Shown in pieces: positions 13,493 through 38,133 of a DNA stretch of 64,000 nt. Under the pieces are notes generated by a model that worked only from the letters and a program-made list of their open reading frames with translations, did not search any database and was not told the DNA's origin. The stretch is from NCBI GenBank assembly GCA_021463195.1, contig JAJTXZ010000016.1, positions 1-64,000 on the forward strand, written 5' to 3'. Made by a program: the position numbers and the translations under genes. How positions within the stretch are numbered: position 1 is the stretch's first letter; every line of letters begins with the position of its first letter. Source of the DNA: Anaerolineae bacterium (GTDB lineage: Bacteria; Chloroflexota; Anaerolineae; UBA4142; SHND01).

Positions 13493-16030
13493 ATGCAAGC
13501 GCACTGTCCCAAATGCAAAATTTCGCGCGAAATTTCCAACGCGCAAGTGGTGAAAGCGACAAACGGAAAACCGTTAACGCGCGGAACTTGCGCGGTGTGC
13601 GGCAGCGTGTTGATGCGGGTGATAGAGCCGTCCGACGACGGGCGACAGACGGTAGACGCGATAATGCAGCCCGCGTTGCCGCTGGTTGAATCGCGTCAAG
13701 AAAAAACCGTTGCGCGTGAAACCAAAGCGTCCGATGAAAAATCACGCGTGAAAAAATCCACTGCGCCAAAACGCGCAACGCGTTCACGCCGCGCGCGCTC
13801 AGAGGATGACGATTTGGGTGAGGAATCAATCTCCAATCTCCAATTTCCAATCTCCACCTCCGGCGCCGCGCTCGTCATCGTCGAATCGCCCGCCAAAGCG
13901 AAAACGATTTCCAAATTTCTTGGACGGAATTACCGCGTGCGCGCCTCCGTCGGACACATCCGCGATTTGCCGCGCAAAGATTTGGGCGTGGACCTTGAAC
14001 ACGATTTCAAACCGAAATACGAAATCACCGCGAAAAAACGCGACGTGGTGGACGAACTGCGCGAGTACGCGCAAAGCGCGCGCGAAATTTATCTCGCCAC
14101 CGATCCCGACCGCGAGGGCGAAGCGATTTCGTGGCACCTCGCCGCTGTGTTGAAAAATCAAATCGCGGGCAAACCCGTCCATCGCGTCGAGTTCCATGAG
14201 ATTACACAAGACGCGATTCGCCGCGCGTTTTCGCATCCGCGCGAACTCGACATGGGACGCGTGGACGCGCAGCAAGCGCGTCGCGTGCTGGACCGCATCG
14301 TCGGTTACACCATCAGCCCCTTGCTCGCAAAGAAAATGAAAAAGTGGACGTTGAGCGCGGGGCGCGTACAGTCGGTCGCTGTGCGGCTCGTCGTCGAACG
14401 CGAGCGCGAAATTCAAAATTTTGTCGCGGTCGAATATTGGAGCATCGAGGCGGAATTGGAGAAACAGGGAAACACGGAAACAGGGAAACAGGGAGAATCA
14501 ATCTCCAATCTCCAATCTCCATTCTCTCCCTTTCGCGCGCGGCTTGTCCAAGTCGGCGACAAAGATTTTGAATGTCATTCGGGCGCAGAGGCGTTGAAAC
14601 TCAAAGAGGTACTGGAGAAATGTAATTACCGCGTGCTTGATGCGCGGCGCAAAGATGTAACGCGCAATCCGTATCCGCCGTATATCACTTCGTCGCTGCA
14701 GCAAGACGCGTCGCGGCGCTTGGGTTTCAATCCAAAGCGGACGATGAAAGTGGCGCAAGAATTGTACGAAGGGATTGATGTAGGAGAGGAAGCCGCAGTT
14801 GGTTTGATTACGTACATGCGCACCGATTCAACCAACGTTGCCGAGGCGGCGCAAAAAGAAGCGCTCGAGTACATTGAGCAAAAGTTTGGCGCAAACTATC
14901 TGCCGCCCAAGCCGCGCGTCTATGCCAAAAAAGTCGCGGGCGCGCAAGAGGCGCACGAAGCCATTCGTCCGACAAAAACATTTCGCGAGCCGAACGCTAT
15001 TCGCCAACATCTCGACAATGACCAATTCCGTTTGTACGATTTGATTTGGAAACGCTTTGTCGCGTCGCAAATGGCGAGCGCGATCTTTGATACGACAGCA
15101 GTGGACATTGAGGCGAACGAAGCAAATCACCCAATCACCCAATCACCGAACTATCTCTTTCGCGCGAACGGTTCCATTTTAAAATTCGCCGGCTATCTCG
15201 CAGTTTACGGCAGAAACGTTGGCGACGAGGACGAAGAAAACGATTCGGATAAGCGACTGCCGCCGTTGGAAAAAAACGAGCCGCTCGCTTTGCTCGGCAT
15301 TTATCCCGAACAACATTTCACCGAACCGCCGCCGCGTTATACCGAAGCGACATTGATCAAAGCGTTAGAGCAGCACGGCATCGGGCGTCCGTCAACCTAC
15401 GCGCCCATCATGGCGAATATCCAAGAGCGCGATTACATCGAACAAATCCAAGGACGCAGATTGAAACCGACGGAACTCGGTTTTGTGGTGAATGATTTGC
15501 TCGTCGCGCACTTTGCCGAAATCGTTGATTTGGGATTCACCGCGCAGCTGGAAGAAAAACTGGACGCGGTGGCAGCGGGCAAGGAAAATTGGACCAAGTT
15601 GATGCGCGAGTTTTATGGTCCATTTAAAGAAACGCTTGACCGCGCCGCGCAAGAAATGCCCATCACAATTGTGGCGGATGAAAAGACAGACGTACTGTGT
15701 GATTTATGCGGCGCGCCGATGGTGATCAAAAAAGCCAAGTACGGAAAATTTTTATCGTGTTCGCGTTTCCCCGCGTGCAAAGGCATGAAAAAAATCACGA
15801 CCGGCGTGCAATGTCCCAAATGCAAAGAGGGCGAATTGCGCGAAAAGAAATCAAAAAAAGGTCGCGTCTTTTACGGCTGCGCGCGTTACCCAAATTGTGA
15901 TTTCGCGTCGTGGGACAAACCGCTGAGTGAACCGTGCCCGAACTGCGGCGGCTTGCTTACACAGAGTTCCAAAAATATGATACGATGCGTGAATGGCGAT
16001 TATTCGCGCGGCAGTGTAACCGCGCGATAA
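13493..16030 (+). CDS. topA: DNA topoisomerase I with N-terminal zinc ribbon and repeat-derived insertions
   Basis: 845 residues. A zinc-ribbon domain (1-~45; CPKC...CAVCG, DUF5679-like) and a basic linker precede the TOPRIM domain (LVIVESPAKAKTISKFLG, DPDREGEAISWH). The active-site region is GLITYMRTDST, with the catalytic Tyr. The C terminus has three zinc-finger repeats; the third (CPNCGG...CVNGD) lacks a clear fourth Cys. The enzyme relaxes negative supercoils. Three in-frame insertions built of 7-8 bp tandem repeats interrupt it at about residues 110-123, 323-346 and 543-554, all at domain linkers or loops. No frame is broken, so the gene looks functional. Confidence 0.95.
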   Translation: MQAHCPKCKISREISNAQVVKATNGKPLTRGTCAVCGSVLMRVIEPSDDGRQTVDAIMQPALPLVESRQEKTVARETKASDEKSRVKKSTAPKRATRSRRARSEDDDLGEESISNLQFPISTSGAALVIVESPAKAKTISKFLGRNYRVRASVGHIRDLPRKDLGVDLEHDFKPKYEITAKKRDVVDELREYAQSAREIYLATDPDREGEAISWHLAAVLKNQIAGKPVHRVEFHEITQDAIRRAFSHPRELDMGRVDAQQARRVLDRIVGYTISPLLAKKMKKWTLSAGRVQSVAVRLVVEREREIQNFVAVEYWSIEAELEKQGNTETGKQGESISNLQSPFSPFRARLVQVGDKDFECHSGAEALKLKEVLEKCNYRVLDARRKDVTRNPYPPYITSSLQQDASRRLGFNPKRTMKVAQELYEGIDVGEEAAVGLITYMRTDSTNVAEAAQKEALEYIEQKFGANYLPPKPRVYAKKVAGAQEAHEAIRPTKTFREPNAIRQHLDNDQFRLYDLIWKRFVASQMASAIFDTTAVDIEANEANHPITQSPNYLFRANGSILKFAGYLAVYGRNVGDEDEENDSDKRLPPLEKNEPLALLGIYPEQHFTEPPPRYTEATLIKALEQHGIGRPSTYAPIMANIQERDYIEQIQGRRLKPTELGFVVNDLLVAHFAEIVDLGFTAQLEEKLDAVAAGKENWTKLMREFYGPFKETLDRAAQEMPITIVADEKTDVLCDLCGAPMVIKKAKYGKFLSCSRFPACKGMKKITTGVQCPKCKEGELREKKSKKGRVFYGCARYPNCDFASWDKPLSEPCPNCGGLLTQSSKNMIRCVNGDYSRGSVTAR
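13828..13855. repeat. Heptamer repeat AATCTCC, four copies, within topA (site 1)
   Basis: Four 7-bp units (AATCTCC x2, AATTTCC, AATCTCC) encode ISNLQFPIS in the linker between zinc ribbon and TOPRIM. Confidence 0.9.
14461..14527. repeat. Octamer plus heptamer repeats within topA (site 2)
   Basis: Four GAAACAGG-type octamers (14461-14492) are followed by three AATCTCC heptamers (14500-14520) and a degenerate fourth. They encode KQGNTETGKQGESISNLQS in a position where related enzymes pass directly from the AELE strand to FRARL. Confidence 0.9.
15125..15148. repeat. AATCACCC octamer, three copies, within topA (site 3)
   Basis: Three 8-bp units encode NHPITQSP between VDIEA and YLFRA, a loop that is normally short. 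Confidence 0.85.
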
Positions 16031-16100
16031 TCCGTCCAACCCGCGCTTTCCTTTTGTCAATCAACCATTTAAAAGCAAGAACCAAAAACGGAGTTTTTTC

Positions 16101-17198
16101 ATGTCTTTACGTCTTGGCGCTTTGCGCGAAAAAATGAATGAGCTTGGACTCGACGCGCTGATTGTGTCGCGTAATGAGGACCAGCAATATCTCACGGGCT
16201 TTAGCGGACATGCCGACTTTGATTCGGTCCTGTTGATTTCTCAAACCGACGCGCGCATCGTCACTGATTTTCGTTATGTGGAAGCGGCAACTCGCCAAGC
16301 GCCCGCGCTGCCGGTGATGAAACTCGAACGCGGCAAATACGAAATTGGCGACGCGCTGCGCGATTTCGCGCAGGCGAATCATTTGCGAATTGTCGGTTTC
16401 GAGCCGCAGCATGTCAACGTCTTTCGATACAAGCAATGGCAAAAAACCGCGCGTAAAGCGGGCGTCAAACTCAAAGCGGCGGAGGATGTCATCCTGCAAC
16501 TGCGCGCGGTCAAAGACGAATCAGAAATTGGACGGATTCGGCGCGCGGTGGATTTAACCGACGCGGCATTCGCCCATTTCGTTTCGGTAGTGCATCCCGG
16601 CATGACTGAAAAGCAGGGCGCGTGGATTATCGAATCGTATTTCCGCGAACACGGCGCCGAGGGCAACGCCTTTGACCCGATTGTGGCGAGCGGCCCAAAC
16701 GCGGCGCTGCCGCATGCCGTGCCGAGCGACCGTCAAATTCAGTTGGGCGAACCGCTAACGATTGATATTGGCGCGCGTATGGATGGCTACAACGCGGATA
16801 TGACGCGCACGATTATTTTGGGACACACCACCGCCAAATTCGACGAAATCTATAACATTGTTTTGAAAGCGCAGTTAGCGGTTGAAAAACGCGCGCGCGT
16901 CGGGATGAAAGGCAAACAAATTGACCGCATCGCGCGCCGCATTATCGAGCAAGCGGGTTACGGCGAAAACTTTGGACACGGTTTGGGCCACGGCGTCGGA
17001 CGCGTGGTGCATGAACTTCCGCGCGGCGGCAAATCATCCCAAGATATTGTTAAAGCGGGGATGCTTCTCACGATCGAACCGGGCATTTATATCCCCGATT
17101 GGGGCGGCGTGCGAATTGAAGATTTGGTCGTATTCCGCGATGATGGCGTGGAGGTCTTGACGCGTTCGACCAAAGATCCGCTGGCGCGCGCGGCGTAA
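16101..17198 (+). CDS. M24 family Xaa-Pro aminopeptidase/dipeptidase
   Basis: 365 residues with a creatinase-type N-terminal domain (1-~130) and a pita-bread catalytic domain. Metal ligands visible: Asp222 and Asp233 (DIGARMDGYNADMTR), the His of GHGLGHGVGR (293-297), Glu326 (TIEPGIY) and Glu340 (GVRIEDLV). Such cytoplasmic enzymes release N-terminal residues before proline or split X-Pro dipeptides; the exact substrate cannot be read. GGAG precedes the ATG. The phosphoesterase gene follows after 11 bases and is probably co-transcribed. Confidence 0.9.
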   Translation: MSLRLGALREKMNELGLDALIVSRNEDQQYLTGFSGHADFDSVLLISQTDARIVTDFRYVEAATRQAPALPVMKLERGKYEIGDALRDFAQANHLRIVGFEPQHVNVFRYKQWQKTARKAGVKLKAAEDVILQLRAVKDESEIGRIRRAVDLTDAAFAHFVSVVHPGMTEKQGAWIIESYFREHGAEGNAFDPIVASGPNAALPHAVPSDRQIQLGEPLTIDIGARMDGYNADMTRTIILGHTTAKFDEIYNIVLKAQLAVEKRARVGMKGKQIDRIARRIIEQAGYGENFGHGLGHGVGRVVHELPRGGKSSQDIVKAGMLLTIEPGIYIPDWGGVRIEDLVVFRDDGVEVLTRSTKDPLARAA

Positions 17199-17209
17199 TT
17201 AACGTTCCC

Positions 17210-18394
17210 ATGATTCGAATCGTATTCACCGCCGATAATCATCTCAATCGCTATTACGCGAAAATGACGCGCGACCAACTGCGCGAACGGCGCAAGCGCA
17301 TTCGCCAAGCGTTCCGCGCCACCGTTGACTTTGCCATTCAACAGCGCGCGCATTTTTTTTTGCACGGCGGCGATTTGTTTGACAATTCCGACCCCAGTCC
17401 CATCGAGCTCGCGTATGCGGCGCGCGAATTCAAACGTTTGCAAGAACACAACGTGCGCGTTCTCGCCATCAGCGGCAATCACGATATGCCGCGCTATCTG
17501 GGCGAAAGCGCGACGCCGATTCGGATTTATCAAGAATTGGATGCGCTGCGCGTATTCAACAAGCGCGCGCAGGTCGAATTTGAAACATTCGAGATTGACG
17601 GCGCGCGCATCGCCATCGGCGGCCTCGCGCCCGACCCGCGCGCGACCGCCGAGACCGATTTATTGGATGGCGTGGAAATCAATCCGCCCGATGCCGATGT
17701 GAAAATTCTGTTGTTGCACGGCGGCGTGGAGGATGCCGTGCCGCCCGGCTTTGACGACGCGGTGTATAAAAAATCCGCCATCGCCGCGCTGAAACAAATT
17801 GATTATTTCCTCGTCGGTGACATTCACGCCGACAAAAAACTAAATGTCGAACACGCGACCGTGTTGATTCCCGGCGCGACCGAGCGGCTCACCTTTGGCG
17901 AATTGAAAAACGAACCCGGCTTTTATTATCTCGAACTCGAGGGCAAGATCCCGCGCAAATTGCGCCGCGAAACGATTGCGCCGCAGGCGATGCGCCGTCA
18001 CGAAATTCGCTGCGGCAATTTGCCCGCCGACGATCCGACCGAATATATTTTTCAAGAAATTCGCGCCATCAGCGACCCCGACCAATTATTGCAACTGCGC
18101 CTCGAAGGCATCCTTGACCGCGACGCGTATCATAAAATAAAGTTTTTTGATTTGTGGCGCCTTGGCAATGAACTTAATTTTTATTTTGATCTAGATAAAT
18201 CCCAAATCGAAATTCGCGCGCGCGACGCCGACGCGGACAGCAATGCCGCGCCCGCGGAACACGTGGATGTGGAGCGCGAACTCGCGCGCGTCGCCGATGA
18301 ACTGTTGGCCCAAGCCCAAGATGACGACGCGCGTCTAACCATTCAAGAAGCGCACGCGCGCATCGTAAATTTGTACCGACGCGCAAGTGTGTAA
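17210..18394 (+). CDS. Mre11/SbcD-like metallophosphoesterase (YhaO type)
   Basis: 394 residues. The five calcineurin-like motifs appear in order: ADNHLN (8-13), GGDLFD, SGNHD, LLHGG and GDIHADK. The first motif has ADNHLN instead of the usual DxH; Asp9 and His11 keep the metal ligands. A capping region and an acidic, Ala-rich C terminus follow. The size and its Rad50-like partner further down (20924) suggest the YhaO/YhaN pair rather than classical SbcCD. Predicted DNA end-processing nuclease. It follows the M24 gene by 11 bases; a subtilisin gene separates it from the ATPase. Confidence 0.8.
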   Translation: MIRIVFTADNHLNRYYAKMTRDQLRERRKRIRQAFRATVDFAIQQRAHFFLHGGDLFDNSDPSPIELAYAAREFKRLQEHNVRVLAISGNHDMPRYLGESATPIRIYQELDALRVFNKRAQVEFETFEIDGARIAIGGLAPDPRATAETDLLDGVEINPPDADVKILLLHGGVEDAVPPGFDDAVYKKSAIAALKQIDYFLVGDIHADKKLNVEHATVLIPGATERLTFGELKNEPGFYYLELEGKIPRKLRRETIAPQAMRRHEIRCGNLPADDPTEYIFQEIRAISDPDQLLQLRLEGILDRDAYHKIKFFDLWRLGNELNFYFDLDKSQIEIRARDADADSNAAPAEHVDVERELARVADELLAQAQDDDARLTIQEAHARIVNLYRRASV

Positions 18395-18448
18395 AATACA
18401 TCCACCTGCGCTCTCACTCATTTTTCAGCCCAAAGGAGTTTTCTCGCA

Positions 18449-20713
18449 ATGCGTAAAATTATTTTGCTCGCGGCGCTGTGCGCGCTGAGCATCTTTCCCG
18501 CGCTCTTGGTCGCGTCCACTGTCACCGCGCAAAAGGCGCGCCGCGCGCCCCTGCGCCTCAAAACGGGTTTAGTGATACCCACTCACGAAAATTCAATCGC
18601 CGCCGCGCCAATGCCCGAAGCCGCGCTAAACGCGCGCGACTATTATTTGGTGCAATTTCACGGCGCGGTGAATGACGCGTGGAAACAGCAGCTGCAAGCG
18701 GCAGGCGGCGAGATTGTGGCGTACATTCCTGATTTCGCGTTCAAAGTCCGCATGTCAGGTTCGCAAGCGTCGAGTTTTGCGTCGCAGCAAAATGTCGCGT
18801 GGGTGGGCGCGTTCTTGCCCGCGTATAAAATGAATCTCGATTTGAAACGCGGCGACGCTTTCCCCTATACTATTCGCGTCGAAGAGGGCGCGGATATGGC
18901 GGCGACGCTTGCCGCGATTAGCGCGACTGGCGCCCAAGTCTTGGGCGTTGACGAAACTATCGCGCGCGTTGCCGCGTCGAGCGCGCAGGTGGACGCGATT
19001 TCGCGCGTGACCGACGTGGCATGGATTGAAAATTATATTTTGCCGCAAAAGCACAATGATTATGGCGGCGGCGCTATCATCGGCGGCAATATCGCCAACA
19101 CGAACGGTTATGACGGTTCGACGCAAATCGCCGCCGTCGCCGACACCGGTTTGGGTGACGGCACCAAAACGGGCGCGCATCCCGATATTCCCGCGTCGCG
19201 CATTGTCAACATTAATAATTTGCCCGGCGCGACCGATATTTGTTTTATCAAGATTTTTGACGATGGCGCGATTGACGCCGACAGCGGTCACGGCACGCAT
19301 ACTTCCGGTTCCGTGTTGAGCGATGGCGGCGCGAATGGCGAAGGCAAAGGCGTCGCGCCCGCCGCGCAGTTAGTTTTCCAAGCCGTCGAAAATTTTGTCA
19401 AAATCAATCCCGTCTGTCTCGACGCCGGCGAACCGAATACCGGTTATTTCTTGACCGGCTTGCCCGCGAATTTGAGATCGCTGTTCGCGCAAGCGTACAA
19501 GCAAGGCGCGCGTGTGCATTCCAATTCGTGGGGCGCGGCAGTGAATGGCGATTACAACGCCAATAGCGCCGAGACCGATGCGTACGCGTGGAAAAAGAAA
19601 GATTTGACGATTACGTTTTCCGCCGGCAATTCGGGCACGGACGCCGACAAGAACGGCATTGTGGATTTCGGTTCGCTCGGCGCGCCCGCGACCGCGAAAA
19701 ATGTTATCACCGTCGGCGCGAGCGAAAACGACCGTCAAGGGCATTGGGAATGCGACCCGAATTTAAATTACACCTCGCACGATTTGTACCAGACCGCGCA
19801 AACGTGCAATAGCATGGGCGGACAAAATGTTCTCGGCACCTATGGACAACGCTATCCCGATAGTTTCTCGAGAAATCCGCTCAAAAATGATACGACCGCA
19901 GGCAATCAGGAACAAATGGCGGCGTGGTCTTCGCGCGGCCCTGCGGATGATGGACGCATCAAACCGGATGTCGTCGCGCCCGGCACATGGATTCTTTCGA
20001 CCTCCGCCGGTTTATATCAAGAGGGTTATGGCGACCCCAAGAATCCGCGCGTGAATGAATACAGTTGGGATGGCTGGGGCATGCCGCGCAACGAATTTTA
20101 CAAATACATGGGCGGCACTTCAATGTCGAACCCACTCGTCGCCGGCGCGGCAACCGTTGTCCGCGACTATTATCAAAAAGCGCACGGACTCAACGCGTCG
20201 TCCGCATTGGTCAAAGCCACGCTCATCAACTCGGCGGTGGATTTATTGGATGAAAACAATGACGGCGCGAACGACAACGCTTATCCGATTCCAAACAATC
20301 ACGAAGGGTGGGGGCGCGTGAATGTGGCGGACGCGACCGACGGCACGCGTCAATTTGTCCAAGACGCGCCGGGCGTCGTCACAAAAAATCGGCGCAACTA
20401 TCAATATACGTTATCGGGCGGACAGCCCTTTAAAGTCACATTGGTTTGGACCGATTATCCGTCCACCGAAATCGCCGCGCGCAATCTGGTCAACAATTTG
20501 AATCTGCTCGTGATTTCGCCGAGCGGCGTCAAATATAAAGGCAACGTGTTTGCGAATGGTTGGAGCAAAACAAAGGGCAAATATGACGCGGTGAACAATG
20601 TAGAAAATGTATACATTCAATCCGCCGAAGCGGGGACCTGGACCGTGCGCGTCATCGCCGCGAACGTGCCGATGGGGCCGCAGCCCTTTGCGTTGGTCGT
20701 TCAAGGACCGTAA
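18449..20713 (+). CDS. Secreted subtilisin-like serine peptidase (S8, KP-43-like)
   Basis: 754 residues. A signal peptide (MRKIILLAALCALSIFPALL, cleavage near TAQ) is followed by a prodomain-like region (~45-195) with YYLVQFHGAV. The S8 domain carries the triad Asp232 (VADTGLGDG), His281 (SGHGTHTSG) and Ser558 (GGTSMSNPL). A C-terminal beta-rich domain (~640-754; FKVTLVWTDYP, NNLNLLVISPSG, GTWTVRVIA) matches the KP-43-type jelly-roll. It should be an exported, self-processing protease. GGAG precedes the ATG; a terminator at 20845 ends the unit. Its place between the two DNA-repair-like genes appears incidental. Confidence 0.92.
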   Translation: MRKIILLAALCALSIFPALLVASTVTAQKARRAPLRLKTGLVIPTHENSIAAAPMPEAALNARDYYLVQFHGAVNDAWKQQLQAAGGEIVAYIPDFAFKVRMSGSQASSFASQQNVAWVGAFLPAYKMNLDLKRGDAFPYTIRVEEGADMAATLAAISATGAQVLGVDETIARVAASSAQVDAISRVTDVAWIENYILPQKHNDYGGGAIIGGNIANTNGYDGSTQIAAVADTGLGDGTKTGAHPDIPASRIVNINNLPGATDICFIKIFDDGAIDADSGHGTHTSGSVLSDGGANGEGKGVAPAAQLVFQAVENFVKINPVCLDAGEPNTGYFLTGLPANLRSLFAQAYKQGARVHSNSWGAAVNGDYNANSAETDAYAWKKKDLTITFSAGNSGTDADKNGIVDFGSLGAPATAKNVITVGASENDRQGHWECDPNLNYTSHDLYQTAQTCNSMGGQNVLGTYGQRYPDSFSRNPLKNDTTAGNQEQMAAWSSRGPADDGRIKPDVVAPGTWILSTSAGLYQEGYGDPKNPRVNEYSWDGWGMPRNEFYKYMGGTSMSNPLVAGAATVVRDYYQKAHGLNASSALVKATLINSAVDLLDENNDGANDNAYPIPNNHEGWGRVNVADATDGTRQFVQDAPGVVTKNRRNYQYTLSGGQPFKVTLVWTDYPSTEIAARNLVNNLNLLVISPSGVKYKGNVFANGWSKTKGKYDAVNNVENVYIQSAEAGTWTVRVIAANVPMGPQPFALVVQGP

Positions 20714-20716
20714 TCG

Positions 20717-20830
20717 GCGCCTAGTACTAACTTGATGAGAATGCGGGGTGCCAAACTTCCGAAATTTGCCAAATTTCGAAAGTTTGAACTCATCAAACCC
20801 GCAACCTCATGTTGGTCGAGTACTAGCGCT
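20717..20830. repeat. Fold-back palindromic element
   Basis: GCGCCTAGTACT at the left pairs with AGTACTAGCGC at the right. Inside, TTGATGAG pairs with CTCATCAA, and AAACTTCCGAAATTTG with CAAATTTCGAAAGTTT. About 114 bp, non-coding. No second copy was noticed in this window. Confidence 0.65.
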
Positions 20831-20844
20831 CACAGGATCATCAA

Positions 20845-20878
20845 GGGATGCGGCAAGCGCGCCGCATCCTCTTTTTTT
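20845..20878 (+). terminator. Intrinsic terminator after the subtilisin gene
   Basis: GGGATGCGGC-aagcgc-GCCGCATCCT then C and seven T. It lies inside a longer open frame of the downstream gene, which supports the later start at 20924. Confidence 0.9.
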
Positions 20879-20886
20879 ACGCGCAT

Positions 20887-20915
20887 TTGCGGAACAATCG
20901 TTCTATGCGTAGAAT
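20887..20915 (+). promoter_or_regulatory. Promoter of the Rad50/YhaN-like gene, nearly leaderless
   Basis: TTGCGG (20887-20892), 17 bases, TAGAAT (20910-20915). The start codon at 20924 is eight bases beyond the -10. Confidence 0.6.
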
Positions 20916-20923
20916 GTCGAAAC

Positions 20924-23900
20924 ATGATTCGCCTCAAACGTCTTTACGCGCACGATTTCAAACAACTTTCCGAAATCGAAATTTCTTTTCCCGACACGGG
21001 ACGTATTCTGGTGCAAGGCAAAAATGAAGCGGGAAAATCCACGCTCTTTGAAGCGGTCTTTTTCGCGCTCTTTGGCGCGGCGCTCAATACCGAAAGCGGC
21101 GCCAAAAATCTCGATGACCTCATTCGCTACGACCAAGAAAAAGCGCGCGTCGAACTTGATGTGCAGGCGCGCGATCGTATTTTCAAAATCACGCGCACCC
21201 TCATTCGCGGCAAAACCAACAAGTGGGAATTGGAGATTGCGCGCCCCGACGGCGCGCTCGAAGAAATTCGCGGCAACAAAGCGGTGAACGAACGACTGGT
21301 CAGCGAATTGGGTTTTGACGCCGAAGCGTTGCTCAACACCTGTTTTGTCGAACAAAAAAAATTGGAAAAACTCGAGGGTATGAGCAAAGCAAAGCGCGAA
21401 GAATCGCTCTCGAAAATTTTGAATCTGGAACGCTTGCTCGAACTGGAAGAGCGAATAAAGTTGCGCGGCGAGGATGAAAAACTTTTGACGCGTCTCGCGC
21501 AGCGCGTAGAGCTTGGGCGCGCGCAAGCAGAGCTGCCGGGCGTCGCGCAAACATTGCAGCGCGCCGAGTCCGAACTAAAACAGTTGGATGTGCGCGCCGC
21601 GCTGGAACGCGCGCTAACTGAACTGGACGCGCGCGAAACGTTAACGCAAGAACTTGACGCGCTGCAAATTCAACGCGTCGCGCTGCAAACGCAAATGGCG
21701 CGCGTGGACGCGCTCGACCGCGCGCAACAGACAATGAGCTTGTTGCTTGTGCGCCACGACGCGCTGGCGCACGACCAAGAACAATCCGCCGCGCTTGAAA
21801 CTGAACGCGTCGAAATCGAACGCGCGCTCCAAGAACAGCTGCCCGCGCTAGTCGCGCGTCAAGACGAAATTAAACGCCTCGGCGTTTTAGCGGCGCGGCT
21901 TACGCGCGTCGAAGCCGCGCGTGGCGCGATTCTGAATGATTTGCAACGCGCGCAGAATCGGCGGCAGGAACTTGACGCGCATTTAGAGCGCGGCGCGAAT
22001 TTGAACGCGACGATTGAACAACATACGGCGCGGCTTGCCGCGCTTGACGAAAAATTGCGCGCGTACGAGATCGGCAACGCGTTAGGCGCATGGGCGACGG
22101 CAATGGATGAGGTTGCGAGCGGCGCGGCAGATGCTTCTCAAAGCAGCGCCAAAAAGATAGAGCGCGACGCGCTCGGACGCGCCCAGCGCCAATATCTGAT
22201 TTATCTCGCCGTCATTGTCACTGGCATCGGACTCGTCAGCGCCATTCTTTTGCCCGCGCTCGTTTTACGCAGCGCGAATCTTTTTCTCGGCGTATTGGTC
22301 GCGCTCGTTCTCGCCGCCATCGCCACCTTTGCGGTCATTCTCATCGCGCGACGACTTGTCCAACTCAATCGGCAGGCGACTCTGTTGACCCAAGAGCTTG
22401 GACGCCTCGAAGGCCAAGCCGCCGCCAAACAAACGTTGCAACAAAATGCGCGCGAACGTCTTGACGCGGCGGCGGCGCATTTGCGCGCGCTCGATCCGTC
22501 AATGCCGCCGACGACGGAAGCGGCGCGCGCGCGCCGCGTGGACCTCGCGGCGACATTGGAAAATAAGACGCGCGCCGAGTTGGAAGTCGAGCGCGAAACG
22601 GAACGTGAAAAATTCAATTACGCCTGCGCGCAGCGCGACGAGATAGCGCGTCGCATTCAAGAGTCATCGCCCGCGACCCAAGACAGTATCCCGCAGTTGG
22701 AACGTCGGCACGCGCGCGCGGAACAAATTCTCAATCGTTGGCGCCCCCGCCTCGCGCGACGCTGCGCGCCATTGAATACGCAGCCCGAGACCGAAGCGCT
22801 GCGCGACGCGTACCGCGCGGCGCAAAGCGACATCAAAGCGCTGCAAGCGCGCGCGCAGCAAGCCGATAAATTGGCGCATGACTTGGCGCGTCTACAAGAG
22901 CGCATTGCAAAAACTCGGGACGAAATGCGAGCGCATTATGATGAAATTGTTCCGCTGTTGGATGAACGCGCGGCGGCATGGTCGCCCACTCTCGCGCGCG
23001 CTGCGTATGTGACGCTGCAAGCGCAATTAGCGGCGTCGTTTCGCGACATCGGCGGCGAAACGACGCGCGCGCAAACCGCGCAAGTGGAAAAGCGTTTTGG
23101 CGCGCTGGAACGCGAGCGCGCGATTCGGCAGCGCAACGCGGCGGACGCGCTCCACGCCGCGCGCGCTTTGAAGAACGAATTGGGCGCGGTTGAAACTTTA
23201 CCCGACAAACCCGCGTTGGCGGAATTGCGCGCGCAGGTTGAACGCGTGAGAGAAAATCCCTTGCAAGACCGCGCGGCATTGGAAATACGCGTGCGGCAGT
23301 TGCATCAACGCGTCGGCGAATTGAACGGCACGCGTGAACGCTTTGAACGCGAGCTCGGTCTGGTCGGCGAAAACGTGAACGTCCAAGCCGCGGAATTGGA
23401 ATTGCGCGCCGAGCAGCGCGAACAGTCGCAGCGCAAATACAGCGCCGAGATTGTCGCGCGCGCGCGACGGCGCATCGTGCATCAAGTGCTGCCCGCGACG
23501 ATGGATTATATGCGCCGCATCTTGCCGCAGTTGACGCGCGACCGATATCACGACGCGGAGCTCGACGCCGAAAGTTTCAAAATCAGAGTGTGGGATGAGC
23601 GGGCGGGCCAAAGCGGCGCCTGGAAAGAAAAAAATATTTTCAGCGGCGGGACCAAAGACCAATTTTCGCTTGCGCTGCGTCTGGCGTTTGCGCTGGCGAC
23701 GTTGCCGCAAGAACGCGGCGCTTCGCCCGGTTTTATTTTTTTGGACGAGCCGCTCGGTTCGTTCGATGACGACCGCGCGCAAGCGTTGTTATTCCTGTTG
23801 ACCGAAGGCGAAATCGGCCGCGCCTTTGATCAAATTTTTCTCATTAGCCATGTGCCGGTGCCAGAAAGTAAATTTACACATCGCATTCGCCTGGAGAATG

Positions 23901-23935
23901 GAACGGTGACGCAAAATAGCATTGAAAATATCTGA
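20924..23935 (+). CDS. Rad50/SbcC-like ATPase with mid-protein transmembrane hairpin (YhaN type)
   Basis: About 1003 residues from ATG 20924 (MIRLKRLYAHDFKQL). An in-frame start at 20732 is rejected because it spans a terminator and the promoter. Walker A is GKNEAGKST; the C-terminal ATPase lobe has the signature IFSGGTKDQFSLALRLA and Walker B FIFLDEP with D-loop GSFDD. Long Arg/Glu/Ala coiled coils lie between. Near the apex, where SbcC/Rad50 carries a zinc hook, two hydrophobic helices (about 425-449 and 455-475) form a membrane hairpin and there is no CxxC. B. subtilis YhaN has a comparable plan. Likely a membrane-tethered DNA-end ATPase acting with the 17210 phosphoesterase. Confidence 0.85.
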   Translation: MIRLKRLYAHDFKQLSEIEISFPDTGRILVQGKNEAGKSTLFEAVFFALFGAALNTESGAKNLDDLIRYDQEKARVELDVQARDRIFKITRTLIRGKTNKWELEIARPDGALEEIRGNKAVNERLVSELGFDAEALLNTCFVEQKKLEKLEGMSKAKREESLSKILNLERLLELEERIKLRGEDEKLLTRLAQRVELGRAQAELPGVAQTLQRAESELKQLDVRAALERALTELDARETLTQELDALQIQRVALQTQMARVDALDRAQQTMSLLLVRHDALAHDQEQSAALETERVEIERALQEQLPALVARQDEIKRLGVLAARLTRVEAARGAILNDLQRAQNRRQELDAHLERGANLNATIEQHTARLAALDEKLRAYEIGNALGAWATAMDEVASGAADASQSSAKKIERDALGRAQRQYLIYLAVIVTGIGLVSAILLPALVLRSANLFLGVLVALVLAAIATFAVILIARRLVQLNRQATLLTQELGRLEGQAAAKQTLQQNARERLDAAAAHLRALDPSMPPTTEAARARRVDLAATLENKTRAELEVERETEREKFNYACAQRDEIARRIQESSPATQDSIPQLERRHARAEQILNRWRPRLARRCAPLNTQPETEALRDAYRAAQSDIKALQARAQQADKLAHDLARLQERIAKTRDEMRAHYDEIVPLLDERAAAWSPTLARAAYVTLQAQLAASFRDIGGETTRAQTAQVEKRFGALERERAIRQRNAADALHAARALKNELGAVETLPDKPALAELRAQVERVRENPLQDRAALEIRVRQLHQRVGELNGTRERFERELGLVGENVNVQAAELELRAEQREQSQRKYSAEIVARARRRIVHQVLPATMDYMRRILPQLTRDRYHDAELDAESFKIRVWDERAGQSGAWKEKNIFSGGTKDQFSLALRLAFALATLPQERGASPGFIFLDEPLGSFDDDRAQALLFLLTEGEIGRAFDQIFLISHVPVPESKFTHRIRLENGTVTQNSIENI

Positions 23936-32071: not shown

Positions 32072-32170
32072 TTTCTGATGATTATCCACATCTCGAAAAC
32101 GCGGCGAATTTCCAGACCCCAAGGGTTTTCGAAAACCCTTGGGGTCTGGAAATTCAGGTAATCACCAGAA
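32072..32170. mobile_element. 99-bp fold-back (MITE-like) element, copy B
   Basis: Reverse-complement orientation relative to copy A (11911-12009). Ends are TTCTGATGATTATCC and GGTAATCACCAGAA; the centre is the TTTCCAGACCCC...GGGTTTTCGAAAACCC palindrome. Its right end overlaps the 3' end of the CHAT-like gene and provides that gene's last codons (TTC TGG TGA). Confidence 0.75.
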
Positions 32171-33241
32171 CTTTTCTTTGACGTCGGGCGTCATAGCTTG
32201 CGCCGAAATATATTCTGCATCGAATTTGTCCGCGTCCGGGCGGGGCTGGTCGTCAGGCAACGCGGAATACAACACGGGCGCGCCCCATTCCCAAATGCCA
32301 CCTTGTTCCGCGATGGCGCGACGTCCTTCGCTAACTGCCAGGTCCAGACCCATTTGTTTAGACAGCGCGCGATAGAATGATTGAAAAAACGCTTTGCGCA
32401 AGCTAGCGTCCAAAGGAAATTGAAATGTGACGGCTGACGCGATTATTTGCCGTTCGACCAGTTCCGCCGCTACGGCGGATGCCGCATATGAATCGGATGT
32501 CGCGCGCGTGCCGCCATCAATTACGCCAAGTAGAATAGCGGCGCTCGGGTCGAGCCAGCGCGCGATTTTCGCGGGAGTAAGCCATTGTTCGGGTTGTCGG
32601 TTGCTCAGGCGCAGCGCATAGCTGCCGCTTGCGGGGTCGCGTCCGCCCGTCGTTTGAACGTGCCAGATTTGGACGTGTGTGAGCGCCGTCGCGTCGTTTT
32701 CGAGCGTGGCGAGTGCGAGTCGCCGCGTCGTGATTCCGTTTTTTTCCGCCAGACGCATCAAAAAATCAACGTCCGGAGTCGCATCGTCCGCGGCGCTCGT
32801 GTAATAAATGACAAGGTCTGACCAGTCAAACGGTTTGCGCGGCGGAGCTGCATTGAAATGGCGCGTCAGCGCAAGGCGTCCTTCCAGGCAAAGAAATTCG
32901 CCGACATCGGGATTGTATAAATATTCCCAAGGGAGTTGCATCAGCGTGGAATCTATCGCCAATTTTAGCCGCAGCGCGAGGCCTTGCCGTTCGGCAAAAC
33001 GCTGCGTGGCTTGAAACGCTTGACAAATTTCCGGCGAGAACAAACGCCGATATAGTAACGCGCCAATCTGGCGCATTTCGCGCGGGGCGAGTCCGTTACG
33101 CCAGGTATGGATGCGCTCGTCGCCGAATGGAGAAACGAATTGCGCCGATACGCGTCCGTTCGTCGGGCTGTGCGTAATGACGCGATAGCGTTCTGAATTC
33201 GCCAGTGGTTGTAACGCGATAATTAAATCTTGATATGCCAT
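32162..33241 (-). CDS. CHAT-domain-like protein, probably catalytically inactive
   Basis: 359 residues. RLKLAIDSTLMQLPWEYLYNP (91-111), the 'IWHVQTT' strand at 192-198 and a C-terminal LVERQIIASAVTFQFPLD...FFQSFYRALSKQMGLDLAVSEGRRAI...WEWGAPVLY follow the CHAT (caspase-like) order. His194 occupies the first His of the usual HFxGHG, but the catalytic second His is Thr, and the Cys motif (NACxS) is replaced by LLGVIDGGT (238-245). It thus seems a pseudo-peptidase or a distant relative. The last residues FW and the stop come from the 99-bp repeat element, so the original C terminus may be altered. It has its own promoter. Confidence 0.65.
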   Translation of the reverse strand: MAYQDLIIALQPLANSERYRVITHSPTNGRVSAQFVSPFGDERIHTWRNGLAPREMRQIGALLYRRLFSPEICQAFQATQRFAERQGLALRLKLAIDSTLMQLPWEYLYNPDVGEFLCLEGRLALTRHFNAAPPRKPFDWSDLVIYYTSAADDATPDVDFLMRLAEKNGITTRRLALATLENDATALTHVQIWHVQTTGGRDPASGSYALRLSNRQPEQWLTPAKIARWLDPSAAILLGVIDGGTRATSDSYAASAVAAELVERQIIASAVTFQFPLDASLRKAFFQSFYRALSKQMGLDLAVSEGRRAIAEQGGIWEWGAPVLYSALPDDQPRPDADKFDAEYISAQAMTPDVKEKFW

Positions 33242-33272
33242 GCCGTTTCATCGCCTTGATTCGCAAGGGATA

Positions 33273-33301
33273 ATTATAGCATGACTGTAATCAAACTGTA
33301 A
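33273..33301 (-). promoter_or_regulatory. Promoter of the CHAT-like gene
   Basis: On the minus strand TTACAG, 17 bases, then an extended TGCTATAAT (-10 at 33278-33273), ending 31 bases before the ATG. Confidence 0.7.
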
Positions 33302-33485
33302 TGCGGATATTTTGGCATGTTGGCGCTCCGCGCTTTCTCGGAGCATATTTGAATATCAAGTTTGTCAGTTCGTTTTCGAGTGTTCGTTTGCTTGAAAATT
33401 CACAAAACGAATTTGGATTCCGAAAATTCAAATGTTCTCGCAGGTGGTGACGACGCGTTTGTGGTCAAGTTGGTCAGATTCCGTC

Positions 33486-34403
33486 TCATTCTGCCATAGT
33501 TAATTGCAACGTTTTGTTTTCGGAAATTGGATACCCAAGAACTTGATGGCTAGGTTTGACTATCAACACTTCTTCCATCTCATTCCTCAAATCTTCGGTC
33601 GAGCCAACATGATAAAAATGTTTAATGGTGCGTTGAACGTCATTCCCCCATTGAGCATCAACATACGCGTTCACGCGATATTTGTTTTGTTTCCACATCG
33701 AGAGGGCATAGCCCGCTTGAAGTGAATGAGCAACGTGGGCTAAATCAATCGAGTCTTGTTCGCTCCACGCATCGAAATAATCCGCGTGTCGCGCGATATA
33801 GGGTGGGTCAAGATACGCAAAATCAGCGCGGTCAACATCACGCAAACATTCGCGCCAATCGCCAACTCGAAATTCCCATTTCTTGTTGTGCATTACGCGC
33901 GTAACATCCGCGACTTGATTCGCGATTTTCGTGACAAGCGCTTTGCGAAAGCGGTCAGGTTTGCGGCAAAAGGGCGTATTGAATTGCCCTTTGCGATTGA
34001 ACCGCATCACGCCGTTGAAACAAGAACGATTTAGAAATAAAAAATCAAGCGGGTCGCTTGAACGATTAAAGCGTTCACGAATGAAATAGTAATGTTCTTC
34101 ACCCTTGGCGAGTAATTCTCCGCCCTCATGTGTGAGGTGTTCGCTCACCCGACGCGGCGTAATTTTGCCTTGATGAATTTGTTGGTAGAGCGTGATGATG
34201 TGCGGATTACTGTCATTCAATAAGGCGCGCTCCGGTTGCACATTAAACGCGACAACGCCCGAACCAAGAAATGGTTCAATCCAACGCCCACAGCCATCCC
34301 AACAAATGTTCGCTGCGATGAACGGCACGAGTTTGGTTTTGATCCCTTGACATTTGATTGGCGGGACAATGATGTGAGGGATTTCTCGCGGAAGTAGATT
34401 CAT
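33486..34403 (-). CDS. D12-class DNA N6-adenine methyltransferase (M.EcoRV/Dam-like)
   Basis: 305 residues. The SAM-binding motif I is EPFLGSG (about 43-49) and catalytic motif IV is YLDPPY, in the motif order of alpha-class (D12) adenine methyltransferases. The opening PPIKCQGIKTKLVPFI and FLFLNRSCFNGVMRFNRKGQFNTPF region resemble Dam, M.DpnII and M.EcoRV. It overlaps the upstream EcoRV-like endonuclease by four bases (ATGA), so it is the likely protecting enzyme, predicted to methylate adenine within the endonuclease site. Specificity is inferred from context. Confidence 0.9.
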   Translation of the reverse strand: MNLLPREIPHIIVPPIKCQGIKTKLVPFIAANICWDGCGRWIEPFLGSGVVAFNVQPERALLNDSNPHIITLYQQIHQGKITPRRVSEHLTHEGGELLAKGEEHYYFIRERFNRSSDPLDFLFLNRSCFNGVMRFNRKGQFNTPFCRKPDRFRKALVTKIANQVADVTRVMHNKKWEFRVGDWRECLRDVDRADFAYLDPPYIARHADYFDAWSEQDSIDLAHVAHSLQAGYALSMWKQNKYRVNAYVDAQWGNDVQRTIKHFYHVGSTEDLRNEMEEVLIVKPSHQVLGYPISENKTLQLTMAE

Positions 34404-35179
34404 TCTGAACCTTTATGTTTAAGGTAACTTTTCAAATTGTTGTATGGACGTTTTGGCAGTTCTGCAGCACGCGCCATGTCTTGGGTCAAATAAAACATCC
34501 AATAGTCGTCAAAGACGCGCTCGCCTAATTTTGCGAATGGCCCGTCCCCTTTGAGCAATTTTTCAATTTCGATGACCGAACCAATATTTTTCGTGTTGCC
34601 GCTGCCCGGTCTGTCGGATGCAATTCGATATTTCTCTTGCAGAAAGAAATGAAAATTGTTGATCACCGAAGTAATCCGTTCGAGTTCTTCGAGCCGATAC
34701 TTGCGACGTTCGTCTATTTCTCCATCGGCTTTGGAATAAAGAACGCCGAGAACATAATGCGCGTTATAAGAGCCATAAGGAAACGCAATGTTTTTGCTGC
34801 TTTCGCGTTGACGAAAATATCCCGTGAATGCGCCGAGCGTCATGCCATTTACAAATTTCTCGTTAGTACGATATGTGCTTTTCAAATCCACCGCAAAACG
34901 ATGTCCTTGGCGGTCAACAAAGCTGATGTCGGGATAAAAATTTTGCTGTCCTGCCAGAATCATCTTGAGGTTGTGCGTATCCGCGAAACGCGATAGTTCG
35001 GGAAATAGTAATAATTCCATGATTTTGGATATCACTTTGGTATCTACCGAAATTGTATAAATGTTTTTGGCAATATCAATAAAACTCTTGACAATCCAAT
35101 CGCCGTCTGGAGTCGCAACCGCCGAATTAAAGTTGGCGACATGCGCTTGCAATGCTGTTTGAAAAGATTTCTTGTTCAC
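34400..35179 (-). CDS. EcoRV-like type II restriction endonuclease
   Basis: 259 residues (EcoRV has 245) from a GTG start that shares its G with the TAG stop of the upstream methyltransferase. The PD-(D/E)xK centre is FYPDISF (Asp84) and AVDLKS (Asp98, Lys100), with Glu55 at the position of EcoRV Glu45. Long EcoRV-like stretches include DTKVISKIMELL, TYRTNEKFVNGMTLGAFTG, SKNIAFPYGSYNAHYVLG and RPGSGNTKNIGS (the EcoRV recognition-loop region). Predicted to cut GATATC or a related site as a dimer. Low-GC features and mosaic neighbours suggest horizontal gain. Confidence 0.9.
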   Translation of the reverse strand: MNKKSFQTALQAHVANFNSAVATPDGDWIVKSFIDIAKNIYTISVDTKVISKIMELLLFPELSRFADTHNLKMILAGQQNFYPDISFVDRQGHRFAVDLKSTYRTNEKFVNGMTLGAFTGYFRQRESSKNIAFPYGSYNAHYVLGVLYSKADGEIDERRKYRLEELERITSVINNFHFFLQEKYRIASDRPGSGNTKNIGSVIEIEKLLKGDGPFAKLGERVFDDYWMFYLTQDMARAAELPKRPYNNLKSYLKHKGSE

Positions 35180-36129
35180 TATTTCACTCTCCGAAACGGC
35201 GCCCTCTTTTCATTCTTCGCCGCCATCTTTTCCCCGTATTCCAATTTCACAAAATCCGCGATCAACTGTTTTCGTAATTTCAAATCTTCCTTGACGCGCT
35301 TGTTCGCGAATTTGATGTATTCTTTTTTTAATTCATAGCCGACGTAATTTCGATTCGTCGCGCGCGCGACTTTTAAGGTTGTCCCGATGCCCGCGAACGG
35401 GTCGAGGACGAGGTCGCCGGTGTACGAAAAAAGACGAATGAGGCGATACGCGAGTTCTTCGGGAAAGGGGCAGGGGTGCGGCAGTTGATTGGGCGGCACG
35501 GGCGCGATGTGCCAGATATTGTTGGCAATGTCGCGGGTAAACACGGCGTCGAGTTCCATCGCATCGCGTTCTTTTTCTTGTTTTGTTTTGCCCGCGTACA
35601 TTTTTTTCTCGCCCGGTTTCCGAAAAAGCAAAATATATTCGAGCATCAAGTTCGGATAATAATAGCCGGGATACGGATTTTGAATCGTCGCGCCCGCGCG
35701 TTTCACGCCGCCTGTCACTTTTGCCCAAATAATGTCTTGATGAAAGTCCCAGCCGATTTCTTCCATCAACGCCGTCACATGATATGGCACAGGCACATGT
35801 TTGCCGTTCAACAAAACGGTGCCAATCACAAGCGCGCAATGTCCGCCTGCTTTTGTCACGCGCAAGGTTTCGGTGAACACGCGTTTCAAAAATTGCAAAT
35901 AGTCCGCGTAATTTTCCGCTTGGCGCGGGCGATAATTTTTTCGCGCGGCTTTGTCAAGCGTCGCGTCTTGCGCGTGCGCGTCATAATCAATCGCGTTCCA
36001 ATACGGTGGAGAAGTGACAGTAAGATCAACCGAACCGTTCGCGAGCTCGGGCATGGTTTCGCAAGAGTGTTGGAAGATAGAGTTCAAGATTAGAGACTGG
36101 AGATCGGAGACTAGAGATTGGAGATTCAT
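35179..36129 (-). CDS. Beta-class DNA methyltransferase (N4-cytosine or N6-adenine)
   Basis: About 316 residues from the ATG at 36129; a TTG six bases upstream is also possible. Catalytic motif TSPPYW (about 40-45) comes before the SAM motif DPFAGIGTT (~250), the beta-class order. The first ~17 residues (MNLQSLVSDLQSLIL) are encoded entirely by AATCTCC-like heptamers; homology-type sequence starts only at LNSIFQHSCETMPEL. It lies 34 bases after herA and its stop overlaps the endonuclease start by one base. It may be a second protecting enzyme or an accessory one. Target base cannot be decided from sequence. Confidence 0.88.
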   Translation of the reverse strand: MNLQSLVSDLQSLILNSIFQHSCETMPELANGSVDLTVTSPPYWNAIDYDAHAQDATLDKAARKNYRPRQAENYADYLQFLKRVFTETLRVTKAGGHCALVIGTVLLNGKHVPVPYHVTALMEEIGWDFHQDIIWAKVTGGVKRAGATIQNPYPGYYYPNLMLEYILLFRKPGEKKMYAGKTKQEKERDAMELDAVFTRDIANNIWHIAPVPPNQLPHPCPFPEELAYRLIRLFSYTGDLVLDPFAGIGTTLKVARATNRNYVGYELKKEYIKFANKRVKEDLKLRKQLIADFVKLEYGEKMAAKNEKRAPFRRVK

Positions 36130-36153
36130 TTCCAATCTCTAGTCTCTAGTCTC
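36088..36153. repeat. Inverted heptamer array spanning the methyltransferase start codon
   Basis: On the minus strand GAGACTA GAGACTA GAGATTG lies before the ATG and AATCTCC AATCTCT AGTCTCC GATCTCC AGTCTCT after it. The halves are complementary, so the mRNA could fold a long hairpin with the start codon near its tip. No Shine-Dalgarno is visible. Confidence 0.85.
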
Positions 36154-36163
36154 GTCCTGCATT

Positions 36164-37993
36164 TCACGCGTCCAACTCTTCCACCCATTCCGTCTTTTTC
36201 ATTTTCGCGCGCTCTTGTTTTACCTCGCGTTCGCGTTTATCAATCACCACTTGGCTGCGCGCGTCCTCCAACGCTTTCACCACATCAATGTCATTCCCGC
36301 CCTGTGCGCTCGTACGCTGTCCAATGCGAACCATCACCGGCACGCGCACAATCGGTCCGAGAATCACGGCTTCGCCAACGTTCAAGCCGGGCAAGTCCGC
36401 GAGCAAACCTTCGCTAATGCCTTCGGACGATTGCTTGATGGCGAGTTGGTCTTGCGGATTCGTGAGGCGCATGATGATTTGCGAATTGCACTGCGATAAC
36501 GTGTCGCCGTGAATTTTGTACGGGCGCTGCGTGACGAGTACGAGAAACAGACCGAACTTGCGCCCTTCCGATGCGATGCGCTTGATAATGCTCGCGGCTT
36601 GCGAACGCGCGCCCTGCCCGCCCGGCACAAAATTGTGCGCCTCTTCCAACACAAAAAAGACGGGGCGCGCTAAACCGTTTGTCGTCGCTTCGCCCCACAT
36701 ATCATTCAACACTTTGTTGACGACAAATTCCGTCACCCAACTGTCCACGCCCGCGAGGTCAAGCACCGCCAAATTCATTGGGCGCGTCAAATCCGCGAGC
36801 GGTACCTGGTCGTGGCCCCAAATGTCCACGCGCGTCAAACGTTCCACATATTTGATGGCTTTTTGCGCGCCCGCAATCGCGTCGAGCGATAAATTTTTGC
36901 CGCCATTGTCGGCGCCATTTTTTTCAACGCGCGTCCGCGTATCGCGGGCGGATTCATCCGCTTCCGCTGCCGTGTCATTGCCAAAGTCGTCCCAATCCAC
37001 ATCGAGGTTGGCTTTGTTATATGCCGCTTTATGAAAATCTTCCATGCCGGGCATAGGTGTTTTATCGCGCGGACGTTCGGGGCCACGCGGCATAAAATCG
37101 CCGTCGTTCTCCCCCCCTCCGCCGTCGGCGATGCGCTGCACCTCGCGCAAAAATTCGTGCGGCGCGTAATCGCGTCCGCGCAAATTGTCGTACGCCGTTT
37201 GCAGCGCTTTGCGAATGTTGGTGGACGTTTCGGGAATGCCTGTCATCGCGCAAATTTCGTCCACTTCGAGCGCCGAAAATTTCATGGTGAATTTTTTCGA
37301 GCCGCCGATTTCGTCGTCCGAGATACGCCCCTTTTGATTCGTCGGCATTCGATAAATTTCAACGCGGTCGGCGAACGGCGTGACGCGCATATTTTCATCG
37401 CGGCGCATTTTGACGTAATCGCTGTTGGGGTCAAAAATCACGATCGAGCCGCCGAGCTGCAACAATTTTTCGAGAATGACGCCGACGGTGTACGATTTCC
37501 CCGCGCCCGTTTGCGCGATGACCGCCATGTGTCGCCGCAAACCGTTCGGATTCAGCAGCACATTGACGTTATCGCGATTGATGAGCGAACCGATGTCAAT
37601 TCCGCTTTCCACGTCTTGCGAGAAAAAACGTTTCAATAAATCATCGGGCGCTTGCGTGACCGGATTGCCGGGCATCGTGGCGTGACGCGGATAGCGCACT
37701 GTTTTGCCGTCGAGATAACCCAGCACCTGCGCCGTGCCGACGATGATGGGCTGTGAAGTGGAAATGCGATTGAGGATTTGCGCGACTTCGTTGTACGAAA
37801 GCGATGTATCGAGCAAGCGCGACGAAACCGCGAGTTTGGTCACTTGCGCCAAGACATCGTACTGCGCGCCGCGTTCGGGGTCTTGCACTTGTACGACAAT
37901 ATATTCCAAGCGCGGCGGCGCGATTTCGCGATTGGTCACAAACGTAAATTCATCGGTGCGGACTTCGCCGACGACATAGCCGACAGTGTTCAT
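36164..37993 (-). CDS. herA: HerA-like hexameric DNA translocase ATPase
   Basis: About 609 residues from the ATG at 37993 (MNTVGYVVGEV), preferred over one eight codons earlier because the HAS-barrel domain begins directly here. The N-terminal HAS barrel (1-~110) is followed by the RecA-like core with Walker A AQTGAGKS (~160), an acidic insertion (~290-370) and Walker B FFVLEEAHNF, with sensor region VTQRPYKIH. HerA works with NurA nuclease in archaea and in several bacterial defence systems (with SIR2 or DUF4297 partners). Here no such partner adjoins; restriction-modification genes follow in the same operon. Confidence 0.9.
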   Translation of the reverse strand: MNTVGYVVGEVRTDEFTFVTNREIAPPRLEYIVVQVQDPERGAQYDVLAQVTKLAVSSRLLDTSLSYNEVAQILNRISTSQPIIVGTAQVLGYLDGKTVRYPRHATMPGNPVTQAPDDLLKRFFSQDVESGIDIGSLINRDNVNVLLNPNGLRRHMAVIAQTGAGKSYTVGVILEKLLQLGGSIVIFDPNSDYVKMRRDENMRVTPFADRVEIYRMPTNQKGRISDDEIGGSKKFTMKFSALEVDEICAMTGIPETSTNIRKALQTAYDNLRGRDYAPHEFLREVQRIADGGGGENDGDFMPRGPERPRDKTPMPGMEDFHKAAYNKANLDVDWDDFGNDTAAEADESARDTRTRVEKNGADNGGKNLSLDAIAGAQKAIKYVERLTRVDIWGHDQVPLADLTRPMNLAVLDLAGVDSWVTEFVVNKVLNDMWGEATTNGLARPVFFVLEEAHNFVPGGQGARSQAASIIKRIASEGRKFGLFLVLVTQRPYKIHGDTLSQCNSQIIMRLTNPQDQLAIKQSSEGISEGLLADLPGLNVGEAVILGPIVRVPVMVRIGQRTSAQGGNDIDVVKALEDARSQVVIDKREREVKQERAKMKKTEWVEELDA

Positions 37994-38010
37994 GGTTAGA
38001 GGTACCAGAC

Positions 38011-38133
38011 GTGACACAGTACATCACAATTTGCCCTTTTGGACACAGATTTCACAGATTGCACGGATAAATCAAACCTAAAATCTGTGGCATCTGTGTT
38101 ATCTGTGTCCAAAAAGGTGATGTACTGTGACAG
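38011..38133. repeat. 123-bp inverted repeat with CACAGAT units
   Basis: GACACAGTACATCAC...TTTTGGACACAGATTTCACAGATT on the left is mirrored by AATCTGTGGCATCTGTGTTATCTGTGTCC...GTGATGTACTGTGACAG on the right, about 50 bases per arm with small mismatches and a 20-base centre. Located directly upstream of herA, so it would lie in the herA leader. Confidence 0.8.

Follow-up and report, generated by a model that had tools for sequence, protein, structure and literature searches.

Gene content of the locus

We analysed a stretch of 64,000 nucleotides (the window) from contig JAJTXZ010000016.1 of an Anaerolineae bacterium, whose genome we call G000 and whose five congeners we call G001 to G005 (six genomes of the genus in all). 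Four genes follow one another on the minus strand: herA (36164-37993; 609 aa from ATG 37993), encoding a repair-type HerA ATPase (central domain PF01935, 7e-33); a beta-class DNA methyltransferase gene of the N6/N4 type (35179-36087, within an open reading frame at 35179-36135; PF01555, N6_N4_Mtase, 3e-43); a gene for an EcoRV-like type II restriction endonuclease (RE) with predicted target GATATC (34400-35179; PF09233, 8.6e-107); and a gene for a D12 (Dam-family) adenine methyltransferase, the putative M.EcoRV-like cognate partner of RE (33486-34403; PF02086, MethyltransfD12, 4.5e-41; PADLOC MTase_II PDLC03264, 1e-116). The coordinates and Pfam matches bear out the four open reading frames and family names given in an earlier interpretation made from the letters alone (the sequence-only reading), as well as its overlaps of 1 bp between the beta-class methyltransferase and RE genes and of 4 bp between the RE and D12 genes. 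A CHAT-domain gene lies on the far side of the RE-D12 cassette (32162-33241, minus strand; PF12770), and 12-20 kb from herA the plus strand carries genes for an Mre11/SbcD-like metallophosphoesterase (17210-18394; PF00149) and a Rad50/SbcC-like SMC ATPase (20924-23935, with an open reading frame that opens at 20732; PF02463 and PF13558). Genes for topoisomerase I, the Mre11/SbcD-like protein, a subtilase and the Rad50/SbcC-like protein stand together on that strand (13493-23935).

The ATG at 36129, from which a gap of 34 bp between herA and the beta-class methyltransferase gene had been counted, falls within a 40-bp imperfect palindrome (36107-36146), and alignments with homologues begin some 15 residues after it, matching TTG 36087. 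Because this TTG is the conserved start, the gap is 76 bp. The 91-base gap region folds as a strong hairpin (-36.9 kcal/mol), and each of G001, G002, G003 and G005 has a hairpin of its own, unrelated in sequence, just before the methyltransferase gene; in G002 the stem is followed by TTTTTT, the shape of an intrinsic terminator. Hence it should not be taken for granted that herA is transcribed together with the genes downstream, and the tight packing that had suggested one compact operon of four genes is confined to the methyltransferase, RE and D12 genes. Read-through from herA is possible, given the common direction and short gaps of the four genes in the window; a promoter and terminator scan of the sequence returned signal near chance level. 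Palindromic intergenic repeats occur on both sides of herA (36107-36146 and, upstream, 38037-38114), with a second copy of the first at 2647-2686.

A predicted EcoRV-type restriction-modification pair

RE aligns over residues 32-252 with the sequences of EcoRV crystal structures (1.3e-32). Its catalytic residues D84, D98 and K100 fall on D74, D90 and K92 of EcoRV and its GSGNT recognition loop aligns as well, so that the EcoRV motifs recognised earlier in the endonuclease hold. Ten Chloroflexota homologues of RE all keep the YPD and D-x-K motifs; seven of them have GSGNT as recognition loop, and the three that are most distant have GSSNT. Compared with the enzymes of an E. coli plasmid that carries EcoRV, identity is 47.7% for D12, against the D12 methyltransferase whose gene adjoins that of EcoRV, and 34% for RE. 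Judged by these likenesses, RE and D12 are a complete, ordinary and self-sufficient type II restriction-modification pair of the EcoRV type. A pairing of RE with the beta-class methyltransferase instead of D12 was rejected for this locus, the D12 enzyme being the relative of M.EcoRV.

Homologues of RE are scattered over many phyla. In a phylum-wide sample, 11 of the 15 other Chloroflexota genomes encoding an EcoRV-type endonuclease have RE-D12 pairs without HerA, and across 83 EcoRV-type loci (80 in genomes spread over many phyla and three on viral contigs) a D12 relative stands within 300 bp in 39. None of these 83 loci has HerA in its flanks, which reached up to 8 kb and were shorter at contig ends; one of them, L145, is congener G005, whose herA lies past the contig end. 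The conserved synteny between HerA and EcoRV-type genes that a joint system had been expected to show thus shrinks to two genomes, both of this genus, and a literature search found no title or abstract joining HerA to EcoRV-type genes.

EcoRV-type endonucleases are paired with at least three kinds of methyltransferase: an M.EcoRV-like D12 enzyme, a divergent D12 enzyme in which no PPY motif can be recognised, and an enzyme of the beta class encoded upstream (varied pairing is seen in loci L111, L114, L115, L117, L118, L119 and L148, and in L122, L136, L160 and L162). A divergent beta-class methyltransferase adjoins the endonuclease in seven other loci, and in L148, from Treponema, a beta-class enzyme and a D12 enzyme occur together. 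In a KSB1 bacterium (L143:3403-5277) a single frame of 624 aa joins an EcoRV-type endonuclease to a D12 methyltransferase. Depletion of GATATC was considered as a sign of long residence of the system and set aside as uninformative, the ratio of observed to expected sites being 0.56 in the window and 0.33 in the congeners' loci, which mostly lack the system.

herA as a core gene of the repair type

Orthologues of herA were found, among 60 relatives searched, in all five congeners (84-89% identity), in every sister-family genome at least 90% complete (65-69%, one copy each) and in one genome of another family (54%). The gene is single-copy in 6/6 genomes of the genus, and most sister-family genomes that have it are without the restriction genes of this locus. 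We conclude from this distribution that this order of Chloroflexota inherits herA vertically, in a single copy. The sequence-only reading had raised a joint system of HerA and an EcoRV-type enzyme, a proposal that fails the refuting check named in that reading itself: this HerA clade occurs without the restriction-modification genes in four of the six genus members and in the sister-family genomes that have it.

The central ATPase domain carries Walker A and B motifs and scores highest against repair models: two repair HerA models gave 208 and 200 bits (NF040819, 207.9) and two anti-phage HerA models 133 and 110 bits, all below the very high curated cut-offs of these NCBIfam equivalog models. 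The closest solved structure is a Sulfolobus-type HERA (4d2i, 2.5e-48). A single gene for NurA, the probable nuclease partner, lies on a different contig (G000:C1:114380-115054; 54.5 bits against a cut-off of 21). Genomic linkage of HerA with Mre11 and Rad50 was found: herA has an Mre11-like gene as its direct same-strand neighbour in G018 and in G056, the latter from a different family, and has one close by in G019, G006, G001, G004 and G005, and the Rad50-like gene of the window is 66% identical to the one beside Mre11 in G005. In archaea HerA-NurA acts with Mre11-Rad50 in end resection (PMC5715905; PMC4641729), and the part of PMC9960219 that cites its ref. 4 has herA clustering with rad50, mre11 and nurA. 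Family and neighbourhood make a role of this HerA in end resection the most likely one. An AP endonuclease gene (endonuclease IV-like) near herA in sister-family loci L053, L054, L056 and L058, assigned by a Pfam match in L053 and by the same N-terminal sequence in the other three, adds to the repair context.

The beta-class methyltransferase

The beta-class enzyme has the motif order TSPPYW, then DPFAGIGTT. Every genus genome (6/6) has an orthologue, which lies near herA in all cases where the contigs permit judgement; outside the genus its relatives stand apart from herA. It is most likely a solitary methyltransferase with a target of its own. SPPY motifs are commoner in m4C enzymes, and for this reason its product is more likely to be m4C than m6A.

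In a tree of the methyltransferase DNA sequences G000 groups with G003 and G005 (90/94). The HerA tree strongly groups G000 with G002, the other grouping being rejected (p-AU 0.0002), and for the methyltransferase the G000-G002 grouping is not quite rejected (p-AU 0.06). At its 3' end, beside the cassette, the methyltransferase gene of G000 resembles that of G005 more than that of G002. RE-D12 may plausibly have entered G000 through recombination with methyltransferase sequence of a G005-like strain.

Eight genomes of the class encode relatives of this methyltransferase (54-61% identity), and immediately after each comes an unnamed protein of about 400 aa (L101:6133-7446, L102:2429-3631, L103:8178-9365, L201-L208). 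Three members scanned gave no Pfam or PADLOC match; a profile of these matches the iron-sulphur loop of MutY glycosylases with its C-terminal Cx7Cx2Cx5C stretch (E 0.007). All eight full-length members that were found stand beside such a methyltransferase, and the protein is a candidate partner for it that might excise bases in restriction or repair.

A variable slot downstream of the methyltransferase gene

RE and D12 have orthologues in only two of the six genus genomes, G000 and G005. G002, the sister of G000 in the HerA and Mre11 trees (97/97 and 100/100), aligns with the window over 35188-37994 and 32856-33302 and has about 150 bp between these blocks, against a cassette of about 1.9 kb in G000; the segment missing there corresponds to 33303-35179, with an approximate right border, and the CHAT gene directly follows the beta-class methyltransferase gene. 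The GC content falls from 0.557 in herA to 0.50 in the methyltransferase gene, 0.468 in D12 and 0.427 in RE, and GC3 is 0.67 in herA, 0.47 in D12 and 0.45 in RE.

The order in G005 is herA-Cache-methyltransferase-RE-D12-g164-Mre11-Rad50, read across two contigs with a common 34-base end, a joint that we infer; in G004 it is herA-Cache-methyltransferase-SIR2_2-Mre11-Rad50 and in G001 herA-methyltransferase-three genes-Mre11. The methyltransferase and RE genes overlap in G005 as they do in G000; RE and D12 are 80% and 76% identical between the two genomes, which comes close to the divergence seen in genes nearby, and RE of G005 is frameshifted and decaying. The cassette thus sits at the same spot in two non-sister members and is no one-off. 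The SIR2_2 gene in the slot of G004, between the methyltransferase and Mre11 genes, encodes a protein of 929 aa that resembles defence proteins of the ThsA type (L052:4406-7195). Next after the CHAT gene of G002 comes one for a large CHAT-NTPase-TPR protein of 1156 aa (L048:8262-12839).

Discussion

Our main reading, to which we give a probability of roughly 0.88, is that a mobile EcoRV-type cassette occupies a variable slot of a herA-mre11-rad50 repair locus and neighbours HerA by chance. The hitch-hiker that the sequence-only reading had offered as its fallback comes nearer the truth than a joint system, with the roles reversed: the newcomers are the restriction genes, in the neighbourhood of HerA, Mre11 and Rad50.

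The locus resembles several known systems in part. Like the EcoRV system (R.EcoRV/M.EcoRV), it has a PD...D-K nuclease whose catalytic and recognition residues match, and an adjoining Dam-family D12 enzyme, both of full length; unlike that system, it has RE and then D12 in tandem on one strand with a 4-bp overlap, a beta-class methyltransferase gene upstream, and only 34% (RE) and 48% (D12) identity to the enzymes of the E. coli plasmid. With HerA-NurA and Mre11-Rad50 it shares the HerA family, the Mre11/Rad50-like neighbours and a NurA in the genome, but here, in a bacterium (Chloroflexota), NurA is not adjacent and Mre11/Rad50 lie 12-20 kb off. A HerA ATPase adjoining nuclease genes recalls the HerA-DUF4297 and HerA-SIR2 defence systems, yet this four-gene set contains neither DUF4297 nor SIR2, its nuclease is an autonomous type II enzyme, and its HerA scores lower against the defence HerA models; DUF4297, SIR2 or an equivalent effector beside a defence-clade HerA was not found, SIR2_2 occurring only in G004, after the methyltransferase gene. 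The best solved relative of the beta-class enzyme is of the Thermus TTHA0409 type (PDB 2zie, 3e-33), with the same order of SPPY, then FxGxG, but the enzyme of the window is probably solitary in this genus.

A variant of this reading concerns the history of the cassette. Because two non-sister genomes share the site, RE-D12 may have been ancestral at this spot, with G001, G002 and G004 losing it and keeping the beta-class methyltransferase, a history that we regard as tentative and somewhat less probable than its opposite: the orthologous position, the near-neighbour level of RE and D12 divergence and the decay already visible in G005 speak for it, and the low GC of RE and D12 relative to their surroundings and the scatter of RE homologues over many phyla speak against it. 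We think it unlikely that a three-gene block of the beta-class methyltransferase, RE and D12, not including HerA, moves as a whole, with the beta-class enzyme modifying a further base, for instance the cytosine within the target of RE or in a site overlapping it. The gene overlap in both G000 and G005, the methyltransferase tree that departs from that of HerA, and the Treponema locus L148, with a beta-class methyltransferase upstream and a D12 enzyme downstream of an EcoRV-type endonuclease, are consistent with such a block, but the L148 enzyme is only 22% identical to ours, the G000-G002 grouping is not rejected for the methyltransferase, four genus members keep the methyltransferase without RE or its D12, and its nearest relatives elsewhere are alone or paired with a different protein. 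An extension of that idea, in which the three-gene unit would prefer the herA-mre11-rad50 locus, breaks and resection would be co-expressed, and HerA, NurA, Mre11 and Rad50 would degrade cut foreign DNA, is improbable.

Least probable of all, to a degree that leaves it little room, is HerA as a functional fourth component, a DNA-scanning translocase that aids or regulates the endonuclease. EcoRV-type enzymes need neither ATP nor a translocase; HerA is a core gene that occurs without the cassette, it is absent from the flanks, of up to 8 kb, of every other EcoRV-type locus surveyed, and a 76-bp gap with a hairpin parts it from the methyltransferase gene. These points outweigh the common direction and short spacing in the window and the precedent of HerA-DUF4297 and related systems, in which HerA partners nucleases (PMC11291478; PMC12198126).

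Under the preferred reading of a mobile cassette beside a repair gene, HerA would be a hexameric DNA translocase that works with the NurA nuclease and the Mre11/Rad50-like pair in DNA-end resection. The beta-class methyltransferase would have come to stand beside herA earlier, in this genus, with the cassette slot just downstream of it, the slot that holds the SIR2_2 gene in G004 and other genes in G001. The D12 enzyme would methylate adenine in the predicted GATATC sites of host DNA and the endonuclease would cut incoming DNA left unmethylated at them, and neither reaction is expected to require ATP or a translocase. The locus offers a clean case of a type II restriction-modification cassette inside a core repair locus and removes a lead that was tempting but false: herA next to restriction genes does not by itself make a new HerA defence system. 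The variable slot beside herA, which holds restriction genes, a SIR2 protein gene or others in related species, is a place to watch for defence cargo.
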